A stretch of DNA of 17,409 nucleotides from Bacillota bacterium (GTDB taxonomy: Bacteria > Bacillota_E > Sulfobacillia > Sulfobacillales > Sulfobacillaceae), in the NCBI GenBank assembly GCA_021802375.1, contig JAKAAL010000010.1:1-17409 (forward strand), in the 5' to 3' direction. Made by a program: the position numbers and the translations under genes. The notes under the pieces were generated by a model. That model worked only from the letters and a program-made list of their open reading frames with translations. It did not search any database and was not told the origin of the DNA. Shown piece after piece: positions 3,559-17,409 of the stretch; the stretch's first letter is position 1, and every line of letters starts with the position of its first letter.

Positions 3559-3797
3559 GGGGACTCCGTCGACGGGGTGTGCGGGGCGTCTTGATGGATA
3601 AGGCGCCTGAACCGAGAGAAGCCCAATCCCGTGGTGAGAAAGGGAGCTAGCAATGCGGCCTCAGGGTGCCCAACCCCCGCTGTCAGGAGCATCGCGCCGG
3701 TAGCGACGACTGCGGTTTCGTGGCCGCCCAGCCGCGAATGTGGCGCGTTGGCATACCACGGCCTTTCGCCCATATGCTACATCAGGATGAGCCCTAT
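3559..3797 (-). other. Degenerate region with a hydrophobic remnant
   Basis: No intact gene. One minus-strand frame (about 3555-3773) encodes a hydrophobic stretch (VVATGAMLLTAGVGHPEAAL) that could be a scrap of a membrane protein belonging to the adjacent ABC pseudogene. It lacks a convincing ribosome-binding site and I cannot place it in a family. Confidence 0.3.
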
Positions 3798-3972
3798 TCA
3801 AAAAAGGATATGCAGCCAGCCTTGTCCTTGGGGGGATTTCCCTGCTCCATTCTCCCCAACCAGAATGCATGACATATTGGCCTGTCGGAATCGACAGGCT
3901 CACATCGTTCAGTGCCGTGAGAGCCCCATATTTGAAAGTCACGCGATCCAACTGGCAACGTGCCGTTGGCAC
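3798..3972 (-). pseudogene. Fragment of an ABC transporter ATPase
   Basis: On the minus strand the frame starting near 3972 reads LDRVTFKYGALTALNDVSLS and then IPTGQY, the typical N-terminal strands of an ABC ATPase (A-loop Tyr in FKYG). A one-base insertion after QY moves the Walker A into another frame, where CILVGENGAGKS is clear. The reading then hits TGA at 3798-3800. No signature LSGGQ, Walker B or H-loop is present downstream, so only the first quarter of the gene survives. Metal or similar importers with GENGAGKS are possible parents, but the substrate cannot be told. Confidence 0.75.
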
Positions 3973-7300: not shown

Positions 7301-8158
7301 ATGATAAGCGTCAAACAGGCAGGGTTTTCAGTGGTCGGACTGCTCACTCTTGTCGGGGCTGCGGGATGCGGCGCCGGACAAGTTTCGGGGGGGTCTTCGG
7401 CTCCAGCGTCCGCCTCCGCTGCGCGTTCATCGCACGATGGTGTCTATGCCGTTACGGTCAATCGAACGGCCGAAATGATTGATGCAGGGCATACGGCGAG
7501 CTTTCTATTGACCGCATGGACGAAAAGTGGAAAGCCCGCAGCGCATCAACCGGTCACGTTCTACATCGGCACAATGATGCCCTTAAGCGGCATGCCTCCC
7601 GCAGAATGGCTGGCCAGCAACACATCGGCAGCCTCATCTTACATTCAAAGCTACTCCCGCGAAACCAACAGCTCGGGCCAAGCCGAGTTGGTTCTCTCGG
7701 CCCAACGCGCCGGCACCATGGAGATGGTGGGCACCAAGATCGGCGATCTGTCGAGCTACAGCCAAAGCGCCATGGCGGCGCTGGGGAGTCTCGATGCCTG
7801 GTGGACCACCCCTGCAACGTCACCCACGGCGCCAGTCGGAGACTCAGTCACGGTTCGGCCGTTTCTCACCAAAGCCTCGCGGGGTTCGGCCATCCCCATT
7901 ACCGTCACGGTCGACTCACCCTCGGGCCCGGTGCCTGATGCCCGGGTGAACTTTATCCCCAAGCAGGACTCCAGCATGATGGCATCGATGTCCAACGCGG
8001 GAGGGTATACCGTGATGACCAATCAGGTGGGTCAAGCGGTCTGGCGAGCAATGGCAGGCACCGCAGCACGCAAAATTCCCATACGCATCGTGGTGACGGA
8101 AGGCGCTTCCATGACCCGAGTGGCGGGGGGAATGAACACGGAAATCGTAGTCCCATAA
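7301..8158 (+). CDS. Lipoprotein with two Ig-like domains
   Basis: A 285-aa precursor with a lipobox ending AAGC (Cys23), so a surface lipoprotein. After a Ser/Ala-rich linker the sequence has two beta-sandwich-like halves. The first begins GVYAVTVNRTAEMIDAGHTA and includes SGKPAAHQPVTFYIG and TNSSGQAELVLSAQRAG. The second includes GSAIPITVTVDSPSGPVPDA and TNQVGQAVWRAMAGTA. The pattern of G-x-P-V/PDARV strands and N-x-x-G-x-A turns is that of bacterial Ig-like domains. It is unusually rich in Met (MMPLSGMPP, SSMMASMSN), which hints at soft-metal contact but proves nothing. ATG 7301 is chosen because GGAGGG lies 6 nt before it; the open frame extends upstream to 7181 without a ribosome-binding site. 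It is followed by the two-component genes, which have their own promoter. Confidence 0.8.
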   Translation: MISVKQAGFSVVGLLTLVGAAGCGAGQVSGGSSAPASASAARSSHDGVYAVTVNRTAEMIDAGHTASFLLTAWTKSGKPAAHQPVTFYIGTMMPLSGMPPAEWLASNTSAASSYIQSYSRETNSSGQAELVLSAQRAGTMEMVGTKIGDLSSYSQSAMAALGSLDAWWTTPATSPTAPVGDSVTVRPFLTKASRGSAIPITVTVDSPSGPVPDARVNFIPKQDSSMMASMSNAGGYTVMTNQVGQAVWRAMAGTAARKIPIRIVVTEGASMTRVAGGMNTEIVVP

Positions 8159-8192
8159 GGATTTGTGGATGTGAAGAACGGCGAGGAAACGT

Positions 8193-8222
8193 TTGAATTT
8201 TCGCTTCGCTGTTTGGTATAAT
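8193..8222 (+). promoter_or_regulatory. Sigma-A-type promoter for the two-component operon
   Basis: TTGAAT (8193-8198), an 18-bp spacer, and a consensus TATAAT (8217-8222). The start of transcription would be near 8229, leaving a leader of about 105 nt before the response regulator gene. Confidence 0.75.
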
Positions 8223-8262
8223 TACGCCATTCCACCAGGATGGTTTCGAACTCGGTATGCAT

Positions 8263-8330
8263 CCCTTTCGCCTGAGCAATCCACGGCGAAAGGGGGGACA
8301 GGAATTTGGCTTCACCCCCGCCAAATTCCT
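8263..8330 (+). promoter_or_regulatory. Structured mRNA leader with two perfect hairpins
   Basis: Hairpin 1: CCCTTTCGCC (8263-8272) pairs with GGCGAAAGGG (8285-8294). Hairpin 2: AGGAATTTGGC (8300-8310) pairs with GCCAAATTCCT (8320-8330), with loop TTCACCCCC and a TTTT directly after. The only Shine-Dalgarno-like sequence, AAAGGGGGG (8289-8297), overlaps the 3' arm of hairpin 1. It lies about 40 nt from the ATG in linear distance, but only about 8 nt if hairpin 2 is folded. The C-run in the loop of hairpin 2 could also pair with the G-run as a pseudoknot. It resembles no riboswitch class I can name. Confidence 0.65.
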
Positions 8331-8336
8331 TTTGTG

Positions 8337-9020
8337 ATGCCTTCAGCTCTGTTAATCGAAGACGATCCACGCATCGCCCGGCTGTTGATTTTGGAGCTGG
8401 GACGCCAAGATTGGGATATTTTATGGCAAAGAACCGGACACGACGGACTCAAGGCCATGGAATCCCGCGTAATCGATATTGTGCTGTTGGATTTGATGCT
8501 TCCTGACATCGATGGCCTTGAGGTGTGCCAACGCATCCGTCAAACCACCGATGTGCCGCTCCTGATGTTGACCGCCCGGGATGCTGTCATGGACCGGGTG
8601 CAAGGCTTAGATGCGGGGGCGGACGATTACCTAATCAAACCGTTTGCCACGACTGAACTGCTGGCACGCATGCGGGCCCTCATCCGACGACTGCGCCAAG
8701 ATCCAGAGGTTAAGGAAGACTGGCTGATCGTCGGGCATGTCAGGATATCGGAGCGGCGCCATGAAGTCCGCGTGTCGGATCAACCGGTCGAACTGACCGC
8801 ACGCGAGTTCGCTCTATTGCATTACTTGCTTCAAAATGCAGGCGTGGTAGTAACCCGCGACATGATTCTTGAGCGGGTCTGGGGCTGGGGCTACCGCGGA
8901 TCATCCGCGGTGGTCGACGTCTATATGGGCTATTTGCGCCACAAGATTGACTGGCCTAAGGCTCGACTGGCCCTTTCCACCATTCGCGGCGTGGGGTATC
9001 TTCTCCGGGAGACGACATGA
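8337..9020 (+). CDS. OmpR/PhoB-family response regulator
   Basis: A 227-aa DNA-binding response regulator. The receiver domain (1-115) has the acidic pair Asp9/Asp10, the phospho-acceptor Asp52 in VLLDLMLPD, the switch Thr79 in LLMLTARD and Lys101 in YLIKPF. The C-terminal winged helix (about 130-225) shows ELTAREFALLHYLLQNAG, TRDMILERVWGWG, a VDVYMGYLRHKI recognition helix and TIRGVGYLL. I start it at ATG 8337 (MPSALLIEDD), the normal start of the family. GTG 8334 is possible, and the frame is open back to 8193. No Shine-Dalgarno site lies in normal linear position; see the leader feature. The stop overlaps the kinase start (ATGA), so the pair is translationally coupled. Pho-like boxes further downstream make a PhoP/PhoB role plausible but unproven. 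Confidence 0.95.
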   Translation: MPSALLIEDDPRIARLLILELGRQDWDILWQRTGHDGLKAMESRVIDIVLLDLMLPDIDGLEVCQRIRQTTDVPLLMLTARDAVMDRVQGLDAGADDYLIKPFATTELLARMRALIRRLRQDPEVKEDWLIVGHVRISERRHEVRVSDQPVELTAREFALLHYLLQNAGVVVTRDMILERVWGWGYRGSSAVVDVYMGYLRHKIDWPKARLALSTIRGVGYLLRETT

Positions 9021-10402
9021 TGAGAAAGGCCGGAGACCGTCGCATTTCCATCAGAGCGCGGCTGACGCGGCAGTTTGTGGCGGCGGTTCTGGCGATTGTA
9101 GTCACCTTTGCCGCCGTGACCTTGGTGGCGATTACCATGCATCTGTACCGTGACGCGGAGGTCGACGCCAGGATGATTCTCGGCAACCTGACCGCCCAGC
9201 GCAGGGAATCGACCGAGGTAATCCTGGATGCGTACAGTCGAACCACTGACCCCCGAATTTGGATTCTCCAGGGCAACCGCGTCATCAACAGTTCCCTCAA
9301 TGCGCCGCCCGCTCCACCGCAGCTTTCGTACACCGGCCTTCTTTGGCAACCGGCCACCTATCAGCTTTCGCGCACCGTCGCTCAGACCACCTTTGTCATT
9401 GATTGGCCGCTGTCGTCGGATGCCGCGCTATTGCGGGAACTCTCCCTGGTGGTGTTGTTGGTGACCTTGGCAGGGATGGGCGCCGGCGTGGCGGCGGCGC
9501 GATGGACCACGCACCGGGCGTTAGCGCCAGTGAAGTCGTTGACTTTGGGCGTGCGGCGCATGCTGGACGCCGGGCGCATCATGCAGGTTCCCATGCCGTC
9601 TGGCCGCGACGAATTTTATGACCTGGCTGGATTGTTGAATCGGCTCTTGTCCGATTTGGAGGAGCGTCGCCAACGGGACCGGACGCTGTTGGCTGACGCC
9701 ACCCATCATCTTCGCACGCCGATGGCGGTAATCCGTGGCAATCTGGATTTGGTTCAGGCTGGGGAGGACATCAACCCGGCGGTGCGCGACGAGTCTCTTG
9801 TCGTCATTGACCGCACGCTCGTCGACATGTCCCGCTTGGTGGATGATCTCTTGACCATGGAGCACGCCCGCAACTTGCCGACTCGGCTGGTGGTGCCGCT
9901 TGACCTGAGGGCACTCATGAGAGAGGTGGTTGAGGATGCGCGAGCCATCGCCAACGAGGGTACAACTGTGACGATGGATCAAGCTCCCGGAGGCCCCGCT
10001 TGGGGCTGGGCGTATCCGGAATTTGCGCGGCGGGCATTGTGGGCCATTATGGAAAATGCGCTCAAGTATTGCGACTCAGATCATGGTCAAATCGCCATGG
10101 CCGTCAAGCATGACTTGGATAGCGGCTATGTGGGGATTCTCGTGTCTAACAATGGCAAAGGCATTGCTGCCCACGAAATGCCGCTGATTTTCAGCCGGTT
10201 TTACCGAGGCGAGGCCGCCCGTGTTACGGAAGGGGGCACTGGTTTGGGGCTCTCCTTGGCCCGTTCCCTGATGCTGGCTCAGTCGGGCACTATCAGTATG
10301 ACATCCTCGGACGGCACAACGGAGGCGACCTTGTGGTTTCGACAAGTGTCAGCCTCCCAGTCTGAACCATCTTCATTCAAAATTAATCAAAAAGCAACGT
10401 AA
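9017..10402 (+). CDS. Membrane sensor histidine kinase
   Basis: The partner of the preceding response regulator, 461 aa, starting within its stop codon. Two membrane segments (about 20-41 and 138-160) flank an extracytoplasmic domain of about 95 residues with no named fold that I recognise. A HAMP linker (about 160-215) leads to HisKA with the phospho-acceptor His230 in DATHHLRTP. The position after it, usually Glu in HELRTP, is His231. The ATPase domain has the N-box Asn347 (MENALKY), a G1 box VSNNGKGI in which the usual Asp is Asn378, the F-box FSRFYRG and the G2 box GGTGLGLSLA. Both substitutions occur in some working kinases, so loss of activity is not implied. The signal is unknown; if the pair is PhoPR-like it would respond to phosphate. 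Confidence 0.95.
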   Translation: MMRKAGDRRISIRARLTRQFVAAVLAIVVTFAAVTLVAITMHLYRDAEVDARMILGNLTAQRRESTEVILDAYSRTTDPRIWILQGNRVINSSLNAPPAPPQLSYTGLLWQPATYQLSRTVAQTTFVIDWPLSSDAALLRELSLVVLLVTLAGMGAGVAAARWTTHRALAPVKSLTLGVRRMLDAGRIMQVPMPSGRDEFYDLAGLLNRLLSDLEERRQRDRTLLADATHHLRTPMAVIRGNLDLVQAGEDINPAVRDESLVVIDRTLVDMSRLVDDLLTMEHARNLPTRLVVPLDLRALMREVVEDARAIANEGTTVTMDQAPGGPAWGWAYPEFARRALWAIMENALKYCDSDHGQIAMAVKHDLDSGYVGILVSNNGKGIAAHEMPLIFSRFYRGEAARVTEGGTGLGLSLARSLMLAQSGTISMTSSDGTTEATLWFRQVSASQSEPSSFKINQKAT

Positions 10403-10404
10403 CG

Positions 10405-10447
10405 TTCACCAGAATTTGAGACATTTCTTAAATAGATTGGCGACAAT
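10405..10447 (+). promoter_or_regulatory. Pho-box-like array and -10 upstream of the VIT gene
   Basis: Hexamers TTCACC (10405-10410), TTGAGA (10416-10421) and CTTAAA (10427-10432) are in an exact 11-bp register; weaker members may precede them at 10383 and 10394. A -10-like GACAAT (10442-10447) follows after a 9-nt gap, the same geometry as at the ABC importer promoter (11405-11480). No good -35 is present. TTCACC matches the core of the actinobacterial PhoP repeat GTTCACC. The leader to the VIT gene would be about 150 nt. Confidence 0.45.
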
Positions 10448-10604
10448 CGGCACGAACGGAGGGATGCGTGCTCAGTAAGGGATTGTCCTGGGGGAAACGA
10501 AGGATTAGCCACTTATAAGACAATGACGGACCAGGCGTTTTATGTGCGCCGGAACTGCGGTGCGGCTTCATTCGTCGGTCGAGATCGTATGTGGGAGGTT
10601 ATTT

Positions 10605-11342
10605 ATGGAGCAAGGCGTTATTCTGAACAGCCACCCCGATAATTATGAAGACGAAACCTGGCACGGCAGCGGGGGTACGACCCTGCGGCAGATGGTGTTC
10701 GGGATGAACGACGGGCTGGTCGCCACGGTGGGATTGGTGGCGGGACTCATTTTTGCGGGTTCTTCCAAAGGTGTGGTGGTGGGCGGCACGTTGGCCGCGA
10801 TTATCGCAGCGGTTTCGTCGATGGCTTTAGGGTCCTATTTGGCCACCCAAGCAGAAGTCGGCTATCAACAGGCGCAAATCCGCCGCGAGCGCCGGGAAAT
10901 CGAAGAGCAGCCGCGCGAGGAATTGAATGAGATGCGGCAAATCTATCGTGGCTACGGTCTGAGCGAGCAAGAGGTGGACATTTTTCTCTCGCACTTTCAA
11001 CGCGACAAGGAACTGTGGCTTCGCCTCATGTTGCGCGACGAATTGGGCATCATCCCGGAGTCCTTTGAAAATCCATGGAAGAACGCGGGATTGATGGCGC
11101 TGGCGGTAGCCGCCGGCTCACTGCCGCCGTTATTGCCGGTATTGCTGGGCTCGAGTCCCAAGCATGTCTTTGTCTGGGTGTTGATTCTATCGGCGCTGGC
11201 GGCGTTTGGATTGGGCGGAGTGACGGCCCGCAGCACCGGTAAGCAGTGGTGGCGGTCAGGGCTCTCGTTTTTGATTGTCGCGACCATTGCGGCGGCCATC
11301 GGCATGGGTGCCGGAAGCCTCATCGCTCCGTTGATAGGATAG
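10605..11342 (+). CDS. VIT/CCC1-family iron/manganese transporter
   Basis: An integral membrane transporter of 245 aa in the VIT1/CCC1 family, which moves Fe2+ or Mn2+ out of the cytoplasm (in eukaryotes into vacuoles; the bacterial role is detoxification or storage). The first membrane helix carries the family mark FGMNDGLVATVGLVAGL, the second contains SSMALGSYLATQAEVG, and they are followed by the cytoplasmic Glu-rich metal-binding helices (RRERREIEEQPREELNEM, then LRDELGI). Three further membrane helices close the protein. ATG 10605 is chosen because GGGAGG lies 6 nt before it; the frame is open to 10542 without such a site. It is followed by a strong terminator, so it is transcribed separately from the ABC operon. 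Confidence 0.92.
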   Translation: MEQGVILNSHPDNYEDETWHGSGGTTLRQMVFGMNDGLVATVGLVAGLIFAGSSKGVVVGGTLAAIIAAVSSMALGSYLATQAEVGYQQAQIRRERREIEEQPREELNEMRQIYRGYGLSEQEVDIFLSHFQRDKELWLRLMLRDELGIIPESFENPWKNAGLMALAVAAGSLPPLLPVLLGSSPKHVFVWVLILSALAAFGLGGVTARSTGKQWWRSGLSFLIVATIAAAIGMGAGSLIAPLIG

Positions 11343-11355
11343 CAGCAGGTGTTAG

Positions 11356-11380
11356 AAGGCCCCCAGCTGGGGGCTTTTTT
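11356..11380 (+). terminator. Rho-independent terminator after the VIT gene
   Basis: GCCCCCAG and CTGGGGGC form a perfect palindrome (11359-11374), extended by A-T and G-T pairs, followed by six T (11375-11380). It begins about 15 nt after the VIT stop and isolates the downstream Pho-type promoter from read-through. Confidence 0.95.
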
Positions 11381-11404
11381 GTCGAAAGAATGGGGTATCG
11401 GTTG

Positions 11405-11480
11405 TTAAAGAAAAGTTAATGCAATGCTAACCGACGGTTAACCGAGTTCTTAGAGGATTCTTAAAGGCGCTTTCTATAGT
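11405..11480 (+). promoter_or_regulatory. Pho-box-type array and -10 of the Ugp-like ABC operon
   Basis: Six hexamers at exact 11-bp spacing: TTAAAG (11405), TTAATG (11416), CTAACC (11427), TTAACC (11438), CTTAGA (11449) and CTTAAA (11460). A -10 hexamer TATAGT lies at 11475-11480. The -35 position (about 11452-11457) has no TTGACA-like sequence and is covered by hexamer 5, so transcription should depend on an activator bound as tandem dimers. TTAAC-like hexamers with 5-nt spacers are the known design of Bacillus PhoP and, loosely, E. coli PhoB sites. The ATG follows 44 nt after the -10. Confidence 0.7.
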
Positions 11481-11524
11481 GGCACCATACGAGGAGGCCT
11501 TCCCCTCGCGGAAAGGAGTCAGAT

Positions 11525-12658
11525 ATGGCAGCCATCAGGCTTCAGGCGATTCAAAAATCTTTCGGACCCACTCGGGTGTTGCATGGTGTCGATATGGAAG
11601 TGGGGGACGGCGAGTTTGTGGTTGTAGTCGGTCCGTCGGGATGTGGGAAATCGACATTGTTGCGCATCGTGGCCGGGTTGGAGTCGCCCACATCTGGAGA
11701 ACTTTGGTTTGGTGACCGCAATGTTACGCGGGCGGCAGCGCATGATCGCAACATCGGCATGGTGTTCCAAAATTACGCCCTCTATCCGCACATGACGGTG
11801 TATGACAATCTGGCATTCGGCATGCGGGCGCATAAAGTCACCCGCGAGGAAATCGAGAGCCGCATCCAGAGCGTGGCGGAACTGTTGGAGATTGGCCATT
11901 TGTTGCTGTCCAAGCCGGGGGCGTTGTCGGGTGGACAACGCCAACGGGTGGCTGTGGGTCGGGCCTTGGTTAGAAATCCCTATGCGTTTCTCATGGATGA
12001 ACCGCTCTCGAATCTGGATGCCTTGCTGCGGGAGCGAATGCGGGTTGAACTGCGACACTTGCACGAACGGTTGCGCATTCCCACCATGTACGTGACGCAC
12101 GATCAGACGGAGGCCATGACCATGGCGGATCGACTGGTCGTGATGAAGGACGGGGACATCCTTCAAATTGGCACGCCGGAAGACGTCTACCATCGGCCGC
12201 AGACTGCCTTCGTGGCGCAGTTCCTGGGATCGCCGCCGATGAACTTGATACCTGTGCATCGCATGGCGGATGGACGGGTCGCCGTGGATGGTCCCCAAGG
12301 CGAGACGCTGACGGTGCCCTCTTGGTTGGCGCAGCGCTGGCCGCGGGCGAGCTCGGAACTGTGGCTCGGGTTTCGTCCCGAACGGGCTGGCGTGAAAGGC
12401 GGCGCGCCCGCGGGGTTGGACTTCTCCTTTAGGATTCAGACCATTGAAACTCTCGGAGCCCGCTATCACGTTCATGGGAAGTGGGGAGACGCCGGGATTA
12501 CCTGGGTGACGACGGAAGGCCACAACATGGCGTTGGGAAGCCAGATGCCGCTCACTGTTCCGTGGGAGCACGTTCACTGGTTCGACCGTCACAGCGGTCG
12601 GCGCATTGACGAACAAACCACTCAGACGGTCGGCCTTGAGGCGGGAGATGCCGTATGA
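11525..12658 (+). CDS. ugpC: ABC transporter ATPase, UgpC/MalK class
   Basis: The energy-providing subunit of a carbohydrate-type (CUT1) importer, 377 aa. The nucleotide-binding domain shows Walker A GPSGCGKST (36-44), the Q-loop Gln82 in MVFQNYALYPHMTV, the signature LSGGQRQR (134-141), Walker B FLMDEP (Asp158, Glu159), the D-loop SNLDA and the H-loop His192 (VTHDQTEAM). From about residue 240 a MalK/UgpC-type regulatory OB/TOBE domain follows (GSPPMNLIP, then LGFRPE). ATG 11525 has AAAGGAG 6 nt upstream. It is the first gene of a four-gene operon and overlaps the next gene by 4 nt. UgpC and MalK cannot be told apart by sequence alone; the Pho-type promoter favours a glycerol-3-phosphate or related phosphodiester role. 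The long antisense open frame over this gene is a codon-bias shadow. Confidence 0.93.
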   Translation: MAAIRLQAIQKSFGPTRVLHGVDMEVGDGEFVVVVGPSGCGKSTLLRIVAGLESPTSGELWFGDRNVTRAAAHDRNIGMVFQNYALYPHMTVYDNLAFGMRAHKVTREEIESRIQSVAELLEIGHLLLSKPGALSGGQRQRVAVGRALVRNPYAFLMDEPLSNLDALLRERMRVELRHLHERLRIPTMYVTHDQTEAMTMADRLVVMKDGDILQIGTPEDVYHRPQTAFVAQFLGSPPMNLIPVHRMADGRVAVDGPQGETLTVPSWLAQRWPRASSELWLGFRPERAGVKGGAPAGLDFSFRIQTIETLGARYHVHGKWGDAGITWVTTEGHNMALGSQMPLTVPWEHVHWFDRHSGRRIDEQTTQTVGLEAGDAV

Positions 12659-13629
12659 CCGATCGCGACCGCACCGTCACCGTTGGTCCTCGTCATAGCC
12701 CGTCTTGGATGTCCGGGTTGGCCCAAATCCGAAACCAGTGGAAGGAAATGGTGGTGGGCTACGGGCTTATTCTCCCCAGTCTCTTGGTGTTTTTGGTGTT
12801 CTACTACGGACCTGCTTTGTTTCTCCTCTACATCGCGTTTTTCCACTGGAACATCTTTGCGAACGACAGCACCTTTGTGGGACTCCACAATTTTTCGGTT
12901 CTGATGCATCAGCCGATTTTCTGGCAGTCCCTGTTGAACACCGCGTATTATGTCGTCTTGGTGGTGCCCGTCACCACGCTCTTGGCGCTCGGGCTGGCGC
13001 TTTTGCTGCGGGAAGCGCGGAACCTGCGAGGGGGAGGGCTGTCGCAGGCCCTGGTGTTTCTGCCGCATGTGACGCCGGTTGTCGCGACCTCGATTATTTG
13101 GGTGTGGATTTTCGATCCCAACTTTGGTTTGGCAAATGCCGTTCTGCGCCTGCTGCACCTGCCGCAGCTGGGATGGCTGGCGAGCGTTCATTGGGCCCTT
13201 CCAGCGGTCATGATTTACACCGTCTGGCACTCGGTCGGACTCTACACCGTGCTCTTTCTGGCAGGGCTTTCCACCCTGCCGAAACAAGTGATGGAAGCCG
13301 CTCAACTGGACGGAGCGCGCGGCTGGCTGTCATTTCGGCGCATCGTTCTGCCGCTCATCAGTCCGATTACGTTTTTTGTCATTGTCTTGGCCACCATCAA
13401 CACAATGCAGACGTTTTCCCAGATCTACACCCTGACGGGGGGGCCCCACGGTGGAGCTGGGGGACCGGCATTCTCCACCACCACCGATTCCTTGCTGATT
13501 TATCAAACAGCTTTCTTGTATGAGCATTTTTCGCTGGGATCGGCGATGAGCCTCGTACTCTTTGTGCTGATTCTCGGCATGACGCTGGTGCAGAAATTGA
13601 TCGCCGACCGCATGGTTTTTTATCGCTAG
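12655..13629 (+). CDS. ugpA: ABC transporter permease, UgpA/MalF class
   Basis: The first membrane subunit of the CUT1 importer, 324 aa with about six membrane helices (for example LILPSLLVFLVFYYGPALFL). The cytoplasmic EAA loop that docks on the ATPase is clear: EAAQLDGARGWLSFRRIVLP. The extracytoplasmic and C-terminal parts (TLTGGPHGGAG, a stretch common before the last helices in UgpA-like permeases) fit the family. The start ATG 12655 overlaps the stop of the ATPase gene (ATGA), so translation is coupled. The N-terminal tail of about 30 charged residues before the first helix is normal for UgpA-like proteins. The role in G3P uptake is inferred from the operon and promoter, not from substrate residues. 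Confidence 0.9.
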   Translation: MTDRDRTVTVGPRHSPSWMSGLAQIRNQWKEMVVGYGLILPSLLVFLVFYYGPALFLLYIAFFHWNIFANDSTFVGLHNFSVLMHQPIFWQSLLNTAYYVVLVVPVTTLLALGLALLLREARNLRGGGLSQALVFLPHVTPVVATSIIWVWIFDPNFGLANAVLRLLHLPQLGWLASVHWALPAVMIYTVWHSVGLYTVLFLAGLSTLPKQVMEAAQLDGARGWLSFRRIVLPLISPITFFVIVLATINTMQTFSQIYTLTGGPHGGAGGPAFSTTTDSLLIYQTAFLYEHFSLGSAMSLVLFVLILGMTLVQKLIADRMVFYR

Positions 13630-13651
13630 CCGCAAAGGGAGGACGCAACAA

Positions 13652-14464
13652 ATGATGAAATGGTTCACCTATGGATTTCGGGCCGTGGCAGCCGCTCTGA
13701 TGGCGGCACCCATCTACTGGGTGTTTGTCATTGCCACGGGAAAGCAGGGCGCCGCATACAGCATTCCTCCGGTCTGGCGCCCGCTGTTCCATTGGGCTCC
13801 CTTCCTCTATGTGTGGACCCACACGCCATGGGCCCGTTATGTGCTCAACAGCGCATTCATCTCCGTCTCCACCATCATGTTGGTGGTGGTCACCAGCGCG
13901 CTTGCTGGGTACGCGCTGGCTGAGCTGAAGTTCCCGGGCAACTCCCTCTACTTCTATGTCTCGCTGGGTGTGATGATGCTGCCACAGCAGGCGTTGCTGG
14001 TGCCGCAATACGTCGTGATGTACCACCTGCATCTGTTAAACACCTATACCGGGCTGATTGTGCCCTTTGCCGCCAGCACGTCGGGAATTTTTCTCTTCCG
14101 CCAGTTCTTCATGAAGCTTCCGGTCAGCTACCGGGAGATAGCGCGTCTCGAGGGGGTCAGCACCCTGACCTATCTCAGGCGGGTGGCGGTGCCGCTTGCG
14201 CGGCCCGCGGTAGCCACCACAGTGCTTCTCACCTTTATCTCCTCTTGGAACCAATTTCAATGGCCGCTCATTATGACCAACAGCCCGGGGCTTCAGCCAA
14301 TCGAGCTGGCTCTCAGCCATTACATGCAAGCCTATCAGTCGCACTGGCGAGACCTGACGTCCGCCGCGCTGATTGCGCTCCTGCCCATTCTCATTGTGTT
14401 CGCATTTACCCAACGACACATTGTCACTGCGGTGGCTGGGGGAGAGATGGGCCAAAAAGAGTGA
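13652..14464 (+). CDS. ugpE: ABC transporter permease, UgpE/MalG class
   Basis: The second membrane subunit of the importer, 270 aa with about six helices (AALMAAPIYWVFVIAT first). The EAA loop is present in a degenerate form, EIARLEGVSTLTYLRRVAVP, in place of EAARIDGA. The protein ends with the short tail typical of MalG/UgpE (GGEMGQKE). ATG 13652 (or the next codon, also ATG) is preceded by GGGAGG about 9 nt upstream. The gap from the first permease is only 22 nt. Both permeases should form a heterodimer coupled to two copies of the ATPase. Confidence 0.9.
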   Translation: MMKWFTYGFRAVAAALMAAPIYWVFVIATGKQGAAYSIPPVWRPLFHWAPFLYVWTHTPWARYVLNSAFISVSTIMLVVVTSALAGYALAELKFPGNSLYFYVSLGVMMLPQQALLVPQYVVMYHLHLLNTYTGLIVPFAASTSGIFLFRQFFMKLPVSYREIARLEGVSTLTYLRRVAVPLARPAVATTVLLTFISSWNQFQWPLIMTNSPGLQPIELALSHYMQAYQSHWRDLTSAALIALLPILIVFAFTQRHIVTAVAGGEMGQKE

Positions 14465-14555
14465 GGGGACAGGCGGTTGAAAGGATGTGATGGCAATGTA
14501 GCCCGGGAGCGAAGCATCCTCGAGTTCGGCATTACTACCATGAGGAGGAACACGC

Positions 14556-15866
14556 GTGAACAAAGGAAAGACGATGGCACGACGCTTGGGACTGATGTCT
14601 GCGCTTACGGCGGGAACTGTGGCGCTGGCAGGATGTGGAGCGGCAGCAACGAACGCTGGCGCCGGATCAACGAAGGCTCAAACCGTCACGATATCGTTTT
14701 GGGAATCGCACTCGTCAAGCAATCCACCTGGGATTGCCCTGGCGCACCTCATTAAGGAGTTCAATCAGAGCCACAAAAACGTGAAGGTCAACCTGACCAT
14801 TACGAAGGCAAGTCACAAGGCTCTGGGCGCACTGGCGGCGGGCGATGCGCCAGTGGTGGCGTGGATTAGCCACTATGACGGAAACTTTCTTTCAGCCCAT
14901 GCCCTGGTGTCATGGAACAAGTACTTTAGCGGGTTCCCGGCGGCAGAGAGAAACTCGATCTTTCCCGTTGTTTGGGGCAACGGGGAGGTCAACGGCCAGC
15001 ACTATCGCATTCAAGCCAACGCCAAGGTGTCCGAGTTAGTCTACAATAAGGCAATCTTTGCGAAGGCTGGCATCAAGAGCTTCCCTGCCACCTGGACCCA
15101 ACTAGCACAAGACGTGTCGATTATAAAGCAAAGAGTGCCGGGCGTCATCCCCTTGGCATGGAAGGATTCGTCGGCTCATATTTTGCCGCCCTTCCTGTCC
15201 AACGGCGGGCGCCTCTTTAAGCCGGGAACTGGTCAAAAAGAAGTTGACTTTCTCTCCACGGCGGCGACACACACCTTCACGTACTTCCGCAATCTCTACC
15301 AACAAAAGGAAATGATTTTTGCCCATGGCAGCGCGATTGCCGCGGACTTCGGGGCAGGCAAGATTGCGATTGCCGACGGCACTTCGGCCGGGTACTTCTT
15401 GAAGGTGAATGCGGCCCACGGGGCCTTTCCGGTCGGCGTGGCCGCCTATCCGAACGGATCAACCGGCCACAGTGCCAACTTGGATCAAGGTCTAGGCTTT
15501 GTGATGATGGTGGACCATGCGCCGCAAGACTACAAAGCGGCGACCACGTTCATTTCGTGGTGGTTTACGCCAAAGGTCCAAGCCTACTGGGGCACCCACT
15601 CCGGATATCCGCCCGAAACGCGGGCGGGTCTGGCGGCCATTCCCCAGAGTTTCTTTGCCGGAAACCCGGGCGTTCTGGTGTCCGCACAAGTGTTAGCATC
15701 GCCCTACACCATTTCGCGTCCCGTATCCACGGCCTACAAAGAGGTGCAAAGCGCGCTTGATACGGCGTTTTACAATGCCGTCACCGGCAGTGCGTCGGTT
15801 CAGCAAGCGCTTAAGACTCTCCAGCAACAGGCCGATTCGTACCTGAGCGGACAAAGCGCGCTCTAA
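14556..15866 (+). CDS. ugpB: ABC transporter substrate-binding lipoprotein, UgpB class
   Basis: The extracytoplasmic solute-binding component, 436 aa. The signal sequence ends in the lipobox LAGC (Cys27), so it is membrane-anchored. The mature part begins VTISFWESHSSSNPPGIALA, the usual opening of family 1 extracellular binding proteins, and continues with LIKEFNQSHKNVKVNLT. It ends in the hinge and C-terminal lobe with WWFTPKVQAYWGTHSGYPPETRAG, the region where UgpB-type proteins place a substrate-contacting aromatic residue. GTG 14556 has AGGAGG 7 nt upstream; the gap from the permease is 91 nt. It is encoded last in the operon (order C-A-E-B, unlike E. coli ugpBAEC). Sugar binding is an alternative to glycerol-3-phosphate. 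Confidence 0.9.
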   Translation: MNKGKTMARRLGLMSALTAGTVALAGCGAAATNAGAGSTKAQTVTISFWESHSSSNPPGIALAHLIKEFNQSHKNVKVNLTITKASHKALGALAAGDAPVVAWISHYDGNFLSAHALVSWNKYFSGFPAAERNSIFPVVWGNGEVNGQHYRIQANAKVSELVYNKAIFAKAGIKSFPATWTQLAQDVSIIKQRVPGVIPLAWKDSSAHILPPFLSNGGRLFKPGTGQKEVDFLSTAATHTFTYFRNLYQQKEMIFAHGSAIAADFGAGKIAIADGTSAGYFLKVNAAHGAFPVGVAAYPNGSTGHSANLDQGLGFVMMVDHAPQDYKAATTFISWWFTPKVQAYWGTHSGYPPETRAGLAAIPQSFFAGNPGVLVSAQVLASPYTISRPVSTAYKEVQSALDTAFYNAVTGSASVQQALKTLQQQADSYLSGQSAL

Positions 15867-15878
15867 CAATCATCCTCG

Positions 15879-15935
15879 GGACCTCCCGGCTGGGAAAAGG
15901 GGCTGGGAGGTCCTGCATAGGAATTTTTTCGTGGC
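15879..15935 (+). terminator. Possible terminator or attenuator after the binding-protein gene
   Basis: GGACCTCCC (15879-15887) pairs with GGGAGGTCC (15905-15913) as a perfect 9-bp stem. A run of six T occurs about 10 nt later, so it is not a textbook terminator. It may reduce read-through into the downstream regulator gene or protect the 3' end of the ABC mRNA. Confidence 0.5.
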
Positions 15936-15949
15936 GGGAGGTGCCTTGT

Positions 15950-16528
15950 ATGGCCATGGAATCCTACGACAATCGGCGAATGGCTGTCCGACAATTTGTG
16001 GTGGACACGTGGCAGGCTATTATAGAAGGGCGGATCGATCGTCTCGTGCTGGACCCCAGCCGGTTGGAACCGGATGATTGGGCGCCCTTGTTGTGGGCGG
16101 CGAGCGAATACAACCTCCCGGTCGAGTTGTCGCTCACCGGAACGCGGAACGACTGGCCCTCCGCCCGGAGGACGGAGGGCGTCGAATCCTTGCCCGCCTC
16201 GTGCCTTCGCTGGGGGAAAAATTGGTGGGAGGTGTGGCACCATGATCAACCGCTCTCCATCAGCCCCCGGGCCTCGTGGATTTTGAGGGCCATCAGCACC
16301 AGTGCCAGCAACGGCCCAGTTTCTCTGGAAGAGATTAACCGCCAGATGAGCCTATGGGGGCAGTCTATTGTGCGTGAAAGCAATTTTCGCAGCAATGTGC
16401 GGGCTGTCCGCGACCGCATTGGCGCGTCCCACATCATCACCGTGCCTCAGCGCGGCTACCTGTGGCGGTCATGCAAGGCCCTTTTGGGGCCGAGAATCGA
16501 TGCTCAGCAGCAACACAAGACGATTTAG
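15950..16528 (+). CDS. Orphan OmpR-type winged-helix DNA-binding protein
   Basis: 192 aa. The C-terminal ~85 residues are an OmpR/PhoB-type effector domain: SPRASWILRAIS, SLEEINRQMSLWG, the recognition region NVRAVRDRIGASH and the closing ITVPQRGYLW wing (compare VRRLRxKLG...RTVRGVGYR). The first ~100 residues are not a receiver domain: no Asp/Asp pair, no phospho-acceptor Asp and no Lys are seen. I do not recognise this part; it is Trp-rich (WAPLLWAAS, WGKNWWEVWH). ATG 15950 has GGGAGG 8 nt upstream; GTG 15941 would overlap that site. It lies downstream of the ABC operon and 21 nt upstream of the nitroreductase, with which it probably shares an mRNA. It may regulate either neighbour. Confidence 0.75.
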   Translation: MAMESYDNRRMAVRQFVVDTWQAIIEGRIDRLVLDPSRLEPDDWAPLLWAASEYNLPVELSLTGTRNDWPSARRTEGVESLPASCLRWGKNWWEVWHHDQPLSISPRASWILRAISTSASNGPVSLEEINRQMSLWGQSIVRESNFRSNVRAVRDRIGASHIITVPQRGYLWRSCKALLGPRIDAQQQHKTI

Positions 16529-16549
16529 AGTGAAGGGGATTAATTCAGG

Positions 16550-17134
16550 ATGCTCATTGAAGAGGCCATACGCAATCGGGCCAGTATCAAGGTGTTTTCT
16601 ATGGAGGAGGTCAGCGCCGACCTCATCGAACGTTGCTTGGACGCCGCTGTTTGGGCACCAAACCACCATATGACCGAACCCTGGTCGTTTCGCGTGCTGA
16701 CCGGCGACGCGCGGGAGATGCTGGCGCGAGTAGCCAAGGACGAAATGGTCCGACGCGCGACCGGGCTTGATGTCGCGGTGGCGCAGGCCAAAGCATTCAA
16801 GGAGCGCCAAAAGCTTCTGAGTGCTCCCGCTATCGTGGCCGTCTATTCGGACGCGGGACCCGATGAGAAAACGACGCGGGAAAACTTTGCGGCATCGGCA
16901 GCAGCCGCTCAAAACATTTTGTTGATGGCTCAAAGCTTGGGATTGGCCAGCATTTGGCGCACGAGCGCCACGTATGAGTATCCTGGCGTTCGGCAGGCGC
17001 TCAAGGTGCCCGAGGGATCAATATTTGTGGGCGCGTTGTTTCTGGGCTATTCCGCGCAGCGCGAGGTCAGGCGCCGCCGCACGCCGGCTGCCGAAAAGAC
17101 CCTCTGGATAACCGAAGACAACCCTCTGGCCTAA
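16550..17134 (+). CDS. Nitroreductase-family flavoprotein
   Basis: A 194-aa FMN-dependent NAD(P)H oxidoreductase of the nitroreductase superfamily, cytoplasmic and normally dimeric. Visible marks: the N-terminal FMN-binding R-A-S-I-K (residues 10-14) in place of R-R-S-x-R; DAAVWAPNHHMTEPWSF, with the catalytic-site N/P pattern AP(N)HxxxEPW; FAASAAAAQNILLMAQSLGLASIW, the long conserved helix; and the closing GALFLGY. Length and order fit the small YdjA/Frm2-like branch. The start ATG 16550 has GAAGGGG about 11 nt upstream, a slightly long spacing. The gene follows the winged-helix regulator by 21 nt. The physiological substrate is unknown. Confidence 0.92.
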   Translation: MLIEEAIRNRASIKVFSMEEVSADLIERCLDAAVWAPNHHMTEPWSFRVLTGDAREMLARVAKDEMVRRATGLDVAVAQAKAFKERQKLLSAPAIVAVYSDAGPDEKTTRENFAASAAAAQNILLMAQSLGLASIWRTSATYEYPGVRQALKVPEGSIFVGALFLGYSAQREVRRRRTPAAEKTLWITEDNPLA

Positions 17135-17409
17135 GGTCTCGAACCGCTGTTCCGTGGGGCTGACTCGAAAGGTACCTTGGCAAACATGCCGTCCCTAGAA
17201 TGTGTCCGTTTTTTTGCCCCGAGTCGTGGAGGAATCAGGTTCCTCGGGGGTCAAGCGGGAGGACATTTTAGGGCCAAGGCCTTTTGGGTCAGCCCTTTTG
17301 GCCGCATCGGGGGCTCACGAGGTTCCTCCTGTCGCTTGTTCAAGACATTCTCTCTATCGCACGATACAGATTGGCGATAATAGTTCCACAAGGGGATAGA
17401 GGCGGGCAC
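17135..17409. other. Intergenic region at the right edge, no gene seen
   Basis: No convincing coding frame with a ribosome-binding site. It contains a T7 run (about 17210), a small perfect hairpin GAGGAA/TTCCTC (17229-17245), a second copy of GGTTCCTC further on, and a GATAAT -10-like hexamer (17376-17381) without a good -35. A promoter for a gene beyond the edge is possible. Confidence 0.35.

Follow-up and report, generated by a model that had tools for sequence, protein, structure and literature searches.

A conserved array of 11-bp repeats before a Ugp-like ABC operon, a probable Pho box, and its recurrence at phosphate genes of the Sulfobacillus family

Introduction

In the window, i.e., the whole stretch of 17,409 nucleotides analyzed here, a Ugp-like ABC transporter operon is preceded by six short hexamers in an 11-bp register. 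This raises the question whether the array is an operator, which protein might bind it and which other genes might be read in the same way. Direct repeats of 11 nt define the Pho box and Ugp is activated in E. coli (PMC4415409), so that the array belongs to a known kind. Furthermore, the ugp cluster of C. glutamicum is phosphate-responsive, pitH2 of S. coelicolor is regulated by PhoP and glpQ2 of the same species has five units (PMC7866108). Like the Pho boxes of E. coli and Streptomyces (PhoB, PhoP), which have at least two 11-nt direct repeat units, the array studied here is built from such repeats; unlike them, with units given as CTGTCAT and GTTCACC, it belongs to a set with up to six or more units (PMC4415409; PMC7866108). 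For Sulfobacillus, a putative Pho regulon (phoB-phoR-pst-phoU) has been named by gene content in an article whose main text contains no occurrence of “pho box”, “promoter”, “binding site”, “ugp”, “pit” or “vacuolar” (PMC6803676).

Results and Discussion

The array and the operon behind it

The original prediction had placed six hexamers at exact 11-bp steps, the last one ending 9 nt before TATAGT, and all of this was confirmed (Table 1). The array is flanked by the ABC ATPase gene on one side and on the other by a terminator-like hairpin that follows the VIT gene and was not picked up in a scan of the region. The claimed absence of a -35 element is in line with a sigma-70 scan of positions 10300-11700, which gave no two-hexamer promoter.

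Table 1. Positions of the features of the window (array units by their first base) and, in the last two rows, loci of related genomes.
Feature	Position or loci	Strand	Remarks
Neighbour regulator, OmpR-family response regulator	8337..9020	+	as a family not required for arrays
Histidine kinase of neighbour regulator	9017..10402	+	
Second, degenerate 11-bp array	10372..10432	+	5′ of VIT1-family gene; units 10372, 10383, 10394, 10405, 10416, 10427
GACAAT, -10-like	10442..10447	+	15 nt from start of last VIT-array unit
VIT1/CCC1-family membrane protein	10605..11342	+	Pfam PF01988, E 3.9e-59; start picked by homology
Intrinsic-terminator-like hairpin and T run	11356..11380	+	3′ of VIT gene; sequence and inverted repeat I1
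Six-unit 11-bp array, predicted Pho-box operator	11405..11465	+	5′ of Ugp-like operon; TTAAAG 11405, TTAATG 11416, CTAACC 11427, TTAACC 11438, CTTAGA 11449, CTTAAA 11460
TATAGT, -10 element	11475..11480	+	15 nt from last-unit start, 9 nt beyond last hexamer
ABC ATPase, UgpC/MalK type	11525..12658	+	NF008653, 455.4 bits, cut-off 432
ABC permease 1, UgpA-like, below cut-off	12655..13629	+	117.5 vs 335
ABC permease 2, UgpE-like, below cut-off	13652..14464	+	126.4 vs 297
Solute-binding protein, SBP_bac_8/1, weak UgpB similarity	14556..15866	+	44.5 vs 411
Antisense Pit arrays	L156, L165, L167, L168, L170, L172-L174, L182-L184, L186, L187, L189, L190, L194, L205-L209, L222		
Orphan PhoB-like regulator loci with three-unit array	L157/L227, L225, L226, L228-L232		

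Runs of at least three YTWA units at 11 bp occur on the two strands of the window solely at the Ugp array, the motif having been defined post hoc from the six units themselves. A consensus-free column-agreement score was matched once when the 185-bp intergenic region was dinucleotide-shuffled 2000 times and in 58 of 200 shuffles of the entire window, so that by this score alone the array is unremarkable in 17 kb. The latter figure favors an explanation by AT-rich curved DNA or an UP-like element acting with no specific regulator, as AT tracts spaced 11 bp can bend DNA; curvature would, however, leave unexplained the unit-specific T and A retained in 10 aligned regions, the specificity of the gene set, the antisense placement at Pit genes and the lack of strong arrays at 25 VIT paralogs (all described below), and we consider it extremely unlikely.

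A held-out test was possible with a unit matrix made from phosphate-gene arrays of other genomes only (A5). None of 2000 mononucleotide shuffles of the Ugp intergenic region matched the observed score of this matrix, be it for 3, 4, 5 or 6 units, and the six-unit score was +10.8 at 11-bp spacing vs. -30.5 or less at 9, 10, 12 and 13 bp. Among four-unit places of the window, the Ugp and VIT promoters rank best on the plus strand and the Ugp array in reverse ranks best on the minus strand. Its four-unit score is 19.0 forward and 24.8 in reverse, an ambiguity of orientation that is due to the self-complementary core TTAA; the forward orientation is favored in 23 of 25 arrays scored, i.e., in all except the Ugp arrays of the window and L003/L033. 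The array thus consists of tandem 11-nt direct repeats with a conserved core, as found in Pho boxes. It is real and conserved, and very likely acts as a functional Pho box with activator geometry. The PhoP box of Bacillus subtilis is composed of TTAACA-like hexamers with about 5-bp spacers and has its core near -20 to -60. The array resembles it in having several tandem TTAAC/TTAAT units at 11 bp just 5′ of the -10 element; the two differ in the bacterial family and in that the arrays described here also occur at VIT genes and antisense at Pit genes and were not found at phoPR-pst loci.

The assignment of the operon to the UgpABCE class holds in part. Its ATPase passes the Ugp cut-off, both permeases and the binding protein score far below theirs, and as UgpC is the only subunit of the four above its cut-off, the operon is termed Ugp-like rather than Ugp. 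The best relatives of the solute-binding protein among PDB sequences are sugar-binding proteins, with UgpB structures scoring lower. Binding of sn-glycerol-3-phosphate or glycerophosphodiesters, as by Ugp, is putative, and it is for the ATPase alone that the Ugp name is supported. A gene for a 195-aa protein at positions 15941-16528, which adjoins the operon in some close relatives, has no Pfam match and by eye an OmpR-type winged-helix-like C-terminus. Elsewhere in the window, an open reading frame at 292-1716 resembles by eye a group II intron reverse transcriptase, and a short frame at 3661-3972 an ABC-transporter ATPase fragment.

Conservation across Ugp loci

The 458 nt around the Ugp promoter are 100% identical in genome G001. 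Among the 18 listed loci of named records, that of Sulfobacillus harzensis is closest, its first permease reaching 97% in the best segment. The closest relatives retain, wholly or partly, the order regulator-kinase-VIT-UgpCAEB-(195-aa gene)-nitroreductase. Across the six units of 10 aligned upstream regions, which had been chosen for an array visible by eye (alignment A1), T occupies the second position in all 60 cells and A the fourth position in 57 of 60, whereas the remaining phases are variable. This means that the 11-bp register is conserved in orthologous promoters. Units 1-4 are TTAAY-like in the relatives and units 5-6 TTCTTA-like; the latter are unlike units at other genes, which counts against a Pho box.

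Twenty distinct Ugp loci were compared (the window, L032-L048, L015, and L016; L049, with 37% identity and from another lineage, was excluded), with several arrays judged by eye. In 16 of them the array lies immediately 5′ of the ATPase gene. Three loci (L036, L037, L038) have the VIT gene before the ATPase gene and the array before VIT, and at one (L042) the array is absent, another point against a Pho box. The four g8 loci (L045-L048) have a four-unit Ugp array, with the aligned -10 hexamer again 15 nt from the start of the last unit.

Recurrence at phosphate genes

A first model (R1) was made from 23 Ugp and VIT promoter arrays, each represented by its last four units and the -10 element, and run on 34 genomes; its training alignment (A4) omitted L037, which is a near-duplicate, as well as the array of the regulator gene in L044. 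At E ≤ 1 it matched in at least 19 of 21 family members and at least 2 of 13 outsiders. Sixteen of its at least 59 matches are Ugp or VIT promoters and 43 lie at other places. Twenty-two of these 43 were examined: eight are at Pho84-like genes, eight at PitA-type PHO4 genes, two at genes for AEP (aminoethylphosphonate)-like binding proteins, one at a PhoB-like regulator gene, and three (L162, L169, L171) elsewhere than at recognized phosphate genes. At L162 of G012 the array precedes a CoA-disulfide-reductase-like gene adjoining an ArsB arsenical pump gene. When ten proteins of R1 loci were scanned, Pit proteins scored above the cut-off of PF01384, TIGR00887 was the best model for the symporters, which were below its cut-off, and AEP-like proteins were below the cut-offs of the AEP models.

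A second model (R2) was made from 17 arrays newly found by R1, with neither Ugp nor VIT among them, and run on 34 family genomes. It gave at least 77 matches at E ≤ 0.1, in at least 32 of the 34 genomes, and at least 54 below E 0.01. All of these 54, of which 17 are training members, were assigned to genes: 22 to Pit, 22 to Pho84-like, 3 to AEP-like and 4 to VIT genes (one via coordinates), plus three single cases, namely SurE, a site between a phosphoesterase and UppP, and a Pho84-like gene that a gene judged transposase-like by eye parts from its array (G023, L236, 1497-4399). The 37 matches outside the training set comprise 14 Pit, 15 Pho84-like, 2 AEP-like and 4 VIT sites as well as SurE and UppP. 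One of the 23 matches between E 0.01 and 0.1 was assigned (G005:C137, orphan regulator). The original prediction had read six units as a sign of a strong or graded switch, which would be a putative property; several Pho84-like promoters also have six units. The arrays thus recur before phosphate-acquisition genes of related genomes, mostly Pit and Pho84-like, as had been expected for an OmpR/PhoB-type tandem operator of the Pho class with activator geometry; together with the register, this recurrence supports such an operator, to which a regulator would bind.

Several results count against this assignment. R2 did not recover the Ugp or VIT array of the window, and R1 missed the L044 regulator array withheld from its training; both models therefore overlook sites. 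Further sites may have escaped because 150 candidates were scored at first in many genomes. Contrary to the expectation of arrays at pstS, neither R1 nor R2 gave any match up to E 10 in the phoPR-pst loci searched (13 and 14, respectively). Presence at pst is typical of a Pho box but not defining, and array-free phoPR-pst loci are unusual in that Pst is the most conserved Pho member, although clear Pho members without conserved boxes exist (PMC4415409). Overall, the assignment as a Pho box is well supported.

Orientation of the arrays and distance to the -10 element

All 22 R2 sites at Pit genes are antisense to the gene and near its start (Table 1), whereas the Pho84-like, AEP-like and VIT arrays among the assigned R2 matches are all sense. 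The Pit gene start, taken by extrapolation as residue 1 of the L165 open frame, lies between -7 and 46 nt from the edge of the array, and the true start codon may be downstream. An A2/T6 hexamer at +15 of the last unit was found at 15 of 21 Pho84-like arrays (of 23 sites, all but L202 and L203 were scored), 8 of 8 orphan-regulator arrays and 2 of 5 other sense arrays, as opposed to 1 of 22 Pit arrays. The 6 of 21 Pho84-like and 3 of 5 other sense arrays in which the script did not find it speak against a Pho box; in some of the Pho84-like misses the script had halted short of the last unit. At L232 the script took the first unit as its reference, and by eye the last unit also has an A2/T6 hexamer at +15. 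The difference between sense and Pit arrays would fit activation beside a -10 element in the former and steric repression in the latter.

The binding protein

Outside the window, the genome encodes a PhoP along with PhoR and Pst. Orthologs of this PhoP were detected in 32 of 34 family genomes; the two without a match are G005, whose completeness is 59%, and G010, in which a contig end truncates the gene. The genomes thus encode a PhoB/PhoP-type regulator along with PhoR and Pst. The closest PDB sequence to PhoP is RegX3, which is among the phosphate regulators treated in PMC4415409.

The original prediction had put forward the neighbour regulator (8337-9020). This protein is 40% identical to PhoP, and its recognition region is SSAVVDVYMGYLRHK, unlike the RTVDVHVRHLREK type of PhoP. 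Its ortholog (E ≤ 1e-60) is missing from five of 34 family genomes (G004, G005, G012, G014, G022), all of which have array hits, with G005 being 59% and G004 89% complete. These five genomes, together with the presence of PhoP in 32 of 34, weaken the neighbour regulator as necessary binder, and its choice was probably wrong. A narrower proposal is that the neighbouring two-component system (8337-10402) regulates the Ugp and VIT arrays and senses a signal other than phosphate. The linkage regulator-kinase-VIT-Ugp is retained in several members of the genus and, in other arrangements, in L041 and L044, the regulator gene of L044 itself has an array, and the promoter-proximal Ugp units are unlike phosphate-transporter arrays. 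All 19 family genomes whose Ugp ortholog is close (at least 72% identity) have an ortholog of the regulator, as do 10 of the 15 that lack such a Ugp ortholog, counts that are uncorrected for kinship; given its presence in all 19, it may have a role at Ugp and VIT. On the other side, besides the array-bearing genomes without it and its different recognition region, no array was seen by eye before its gene in the window, and we regard this proposal as quite unlikely.

The orphan PhoB-like regulator (L157 type) could also be the main binder instead of PhoP, with autoregulation. Its recognition region is PhoP-like, and 8 of the 11 loci examined, i.e., those with at least 55% identity (L157 included), have a three-unit array; at the three homologs with 48% (L233-L235) no array was seen by eye. 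Yet 11 of 34 family genomes have a PhoB-like copy besides PhoP (G005 and 10 genomes with two matches), compared to array hits in at least 32 of 34, which makes this regulator an unlikely main binder.

It is therefore highly probable that the array is a Pho box for a phosphorylated regulator of the OmpR/PhoB family, with PhoP as the likeliest one, and that it activates the Ugp-like operon. Under phosphate shortage, regulator monomers would bind head to tail on one face of the helix, two units per dimer. The last unit would take the place of a -35 element, so that RNA polymerase is recruited to the -10 element and the operon switched on, and the same regulator, reading the weaker array, would turn on the adjacent VIT1-family gene. 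In relatives, it may also activate Pho84-like symporters, phosphonate-type ABC genes and the orphan PhoB-like regulator, and would probably block low-affinity Pit by sitting at the antisense array near the gene start.

The VIT1-family gene

The array before the VIT1-family gene is weaker than the Ugp array and has a -10-like hexamer at the identical offset. An R1 match at 10396-10449 covers this promoter, a site that belongs to the R1 training set. With A5, its score was equalled by none of 2000 shuffles for 4 and 6 units, by one for 5 units, and by 25 for 3 units. Of 11 distinct loci with VIT orthologs of this type (68-100% identity), 10 have an array no more than 300 bp away, and at the eleventh (L033) an R1 array lies about 390-450 bp upstream. 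The ten orthologs score 12.8-30.7 with a matrix that incorporated arrays of the very loci scored, and none of 25 VIT paralogs (36-42% identity) exceeds 8.2, three of them scoring weakly (6.3-8.2); these paralogs are the scorable ones among 30 loci listed, 4 of 30 VIT loci having been left unscored for lack of a tblastn match at 1e-20. A known riboswitch in the VIT leader was rejected, as a search of 8100-17409 against Rfam yielded nothing up to E 1.

The Sulfobacillus family is known from iron-rich acid habitats, and VIT1-family proteins are iron/manganese transporters. The phosphate-starvation regulon may directly include one such transporter, which accompanies the Ugp-like operon in three ways (in tandem with separate promoters, within one operon, or divergently) and would wire phosphate shortage to metal export or sequestration. 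Pit would be silenced via the antisense arrays. In several genera, the arrays of Ugp and VIT may also be composite, in that the units nearest the promoter would be of a second type, recognized by a different regulator. We consider the chances of this wider proposal to be evenly balanced.

Implications for the Sulfobacillus family

Among the literature matches listed, titles and abstract openings mention neither a Pho box of Sulfobacillus nor a VIT gene in a bacterial Pho regulon. As far as these matches show, the map across the family, the antisense arrays at Pit and the inclusion of VIT are new. A link between PhoB and iron has been reported for Synechocystis (PMC11126600). For the Sulfobacillus family, the arrays provide a sequence-defined phosphate regulon where it had previously been named by gene content (PMC6803676). 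Their geometry offers a testable rule, according to which arrays with a -10 element at +15 would activate and antisense arrays near a gene start would repress. The VIT link suggests that the control of phosphate and metal may be coupled in acidophiles.
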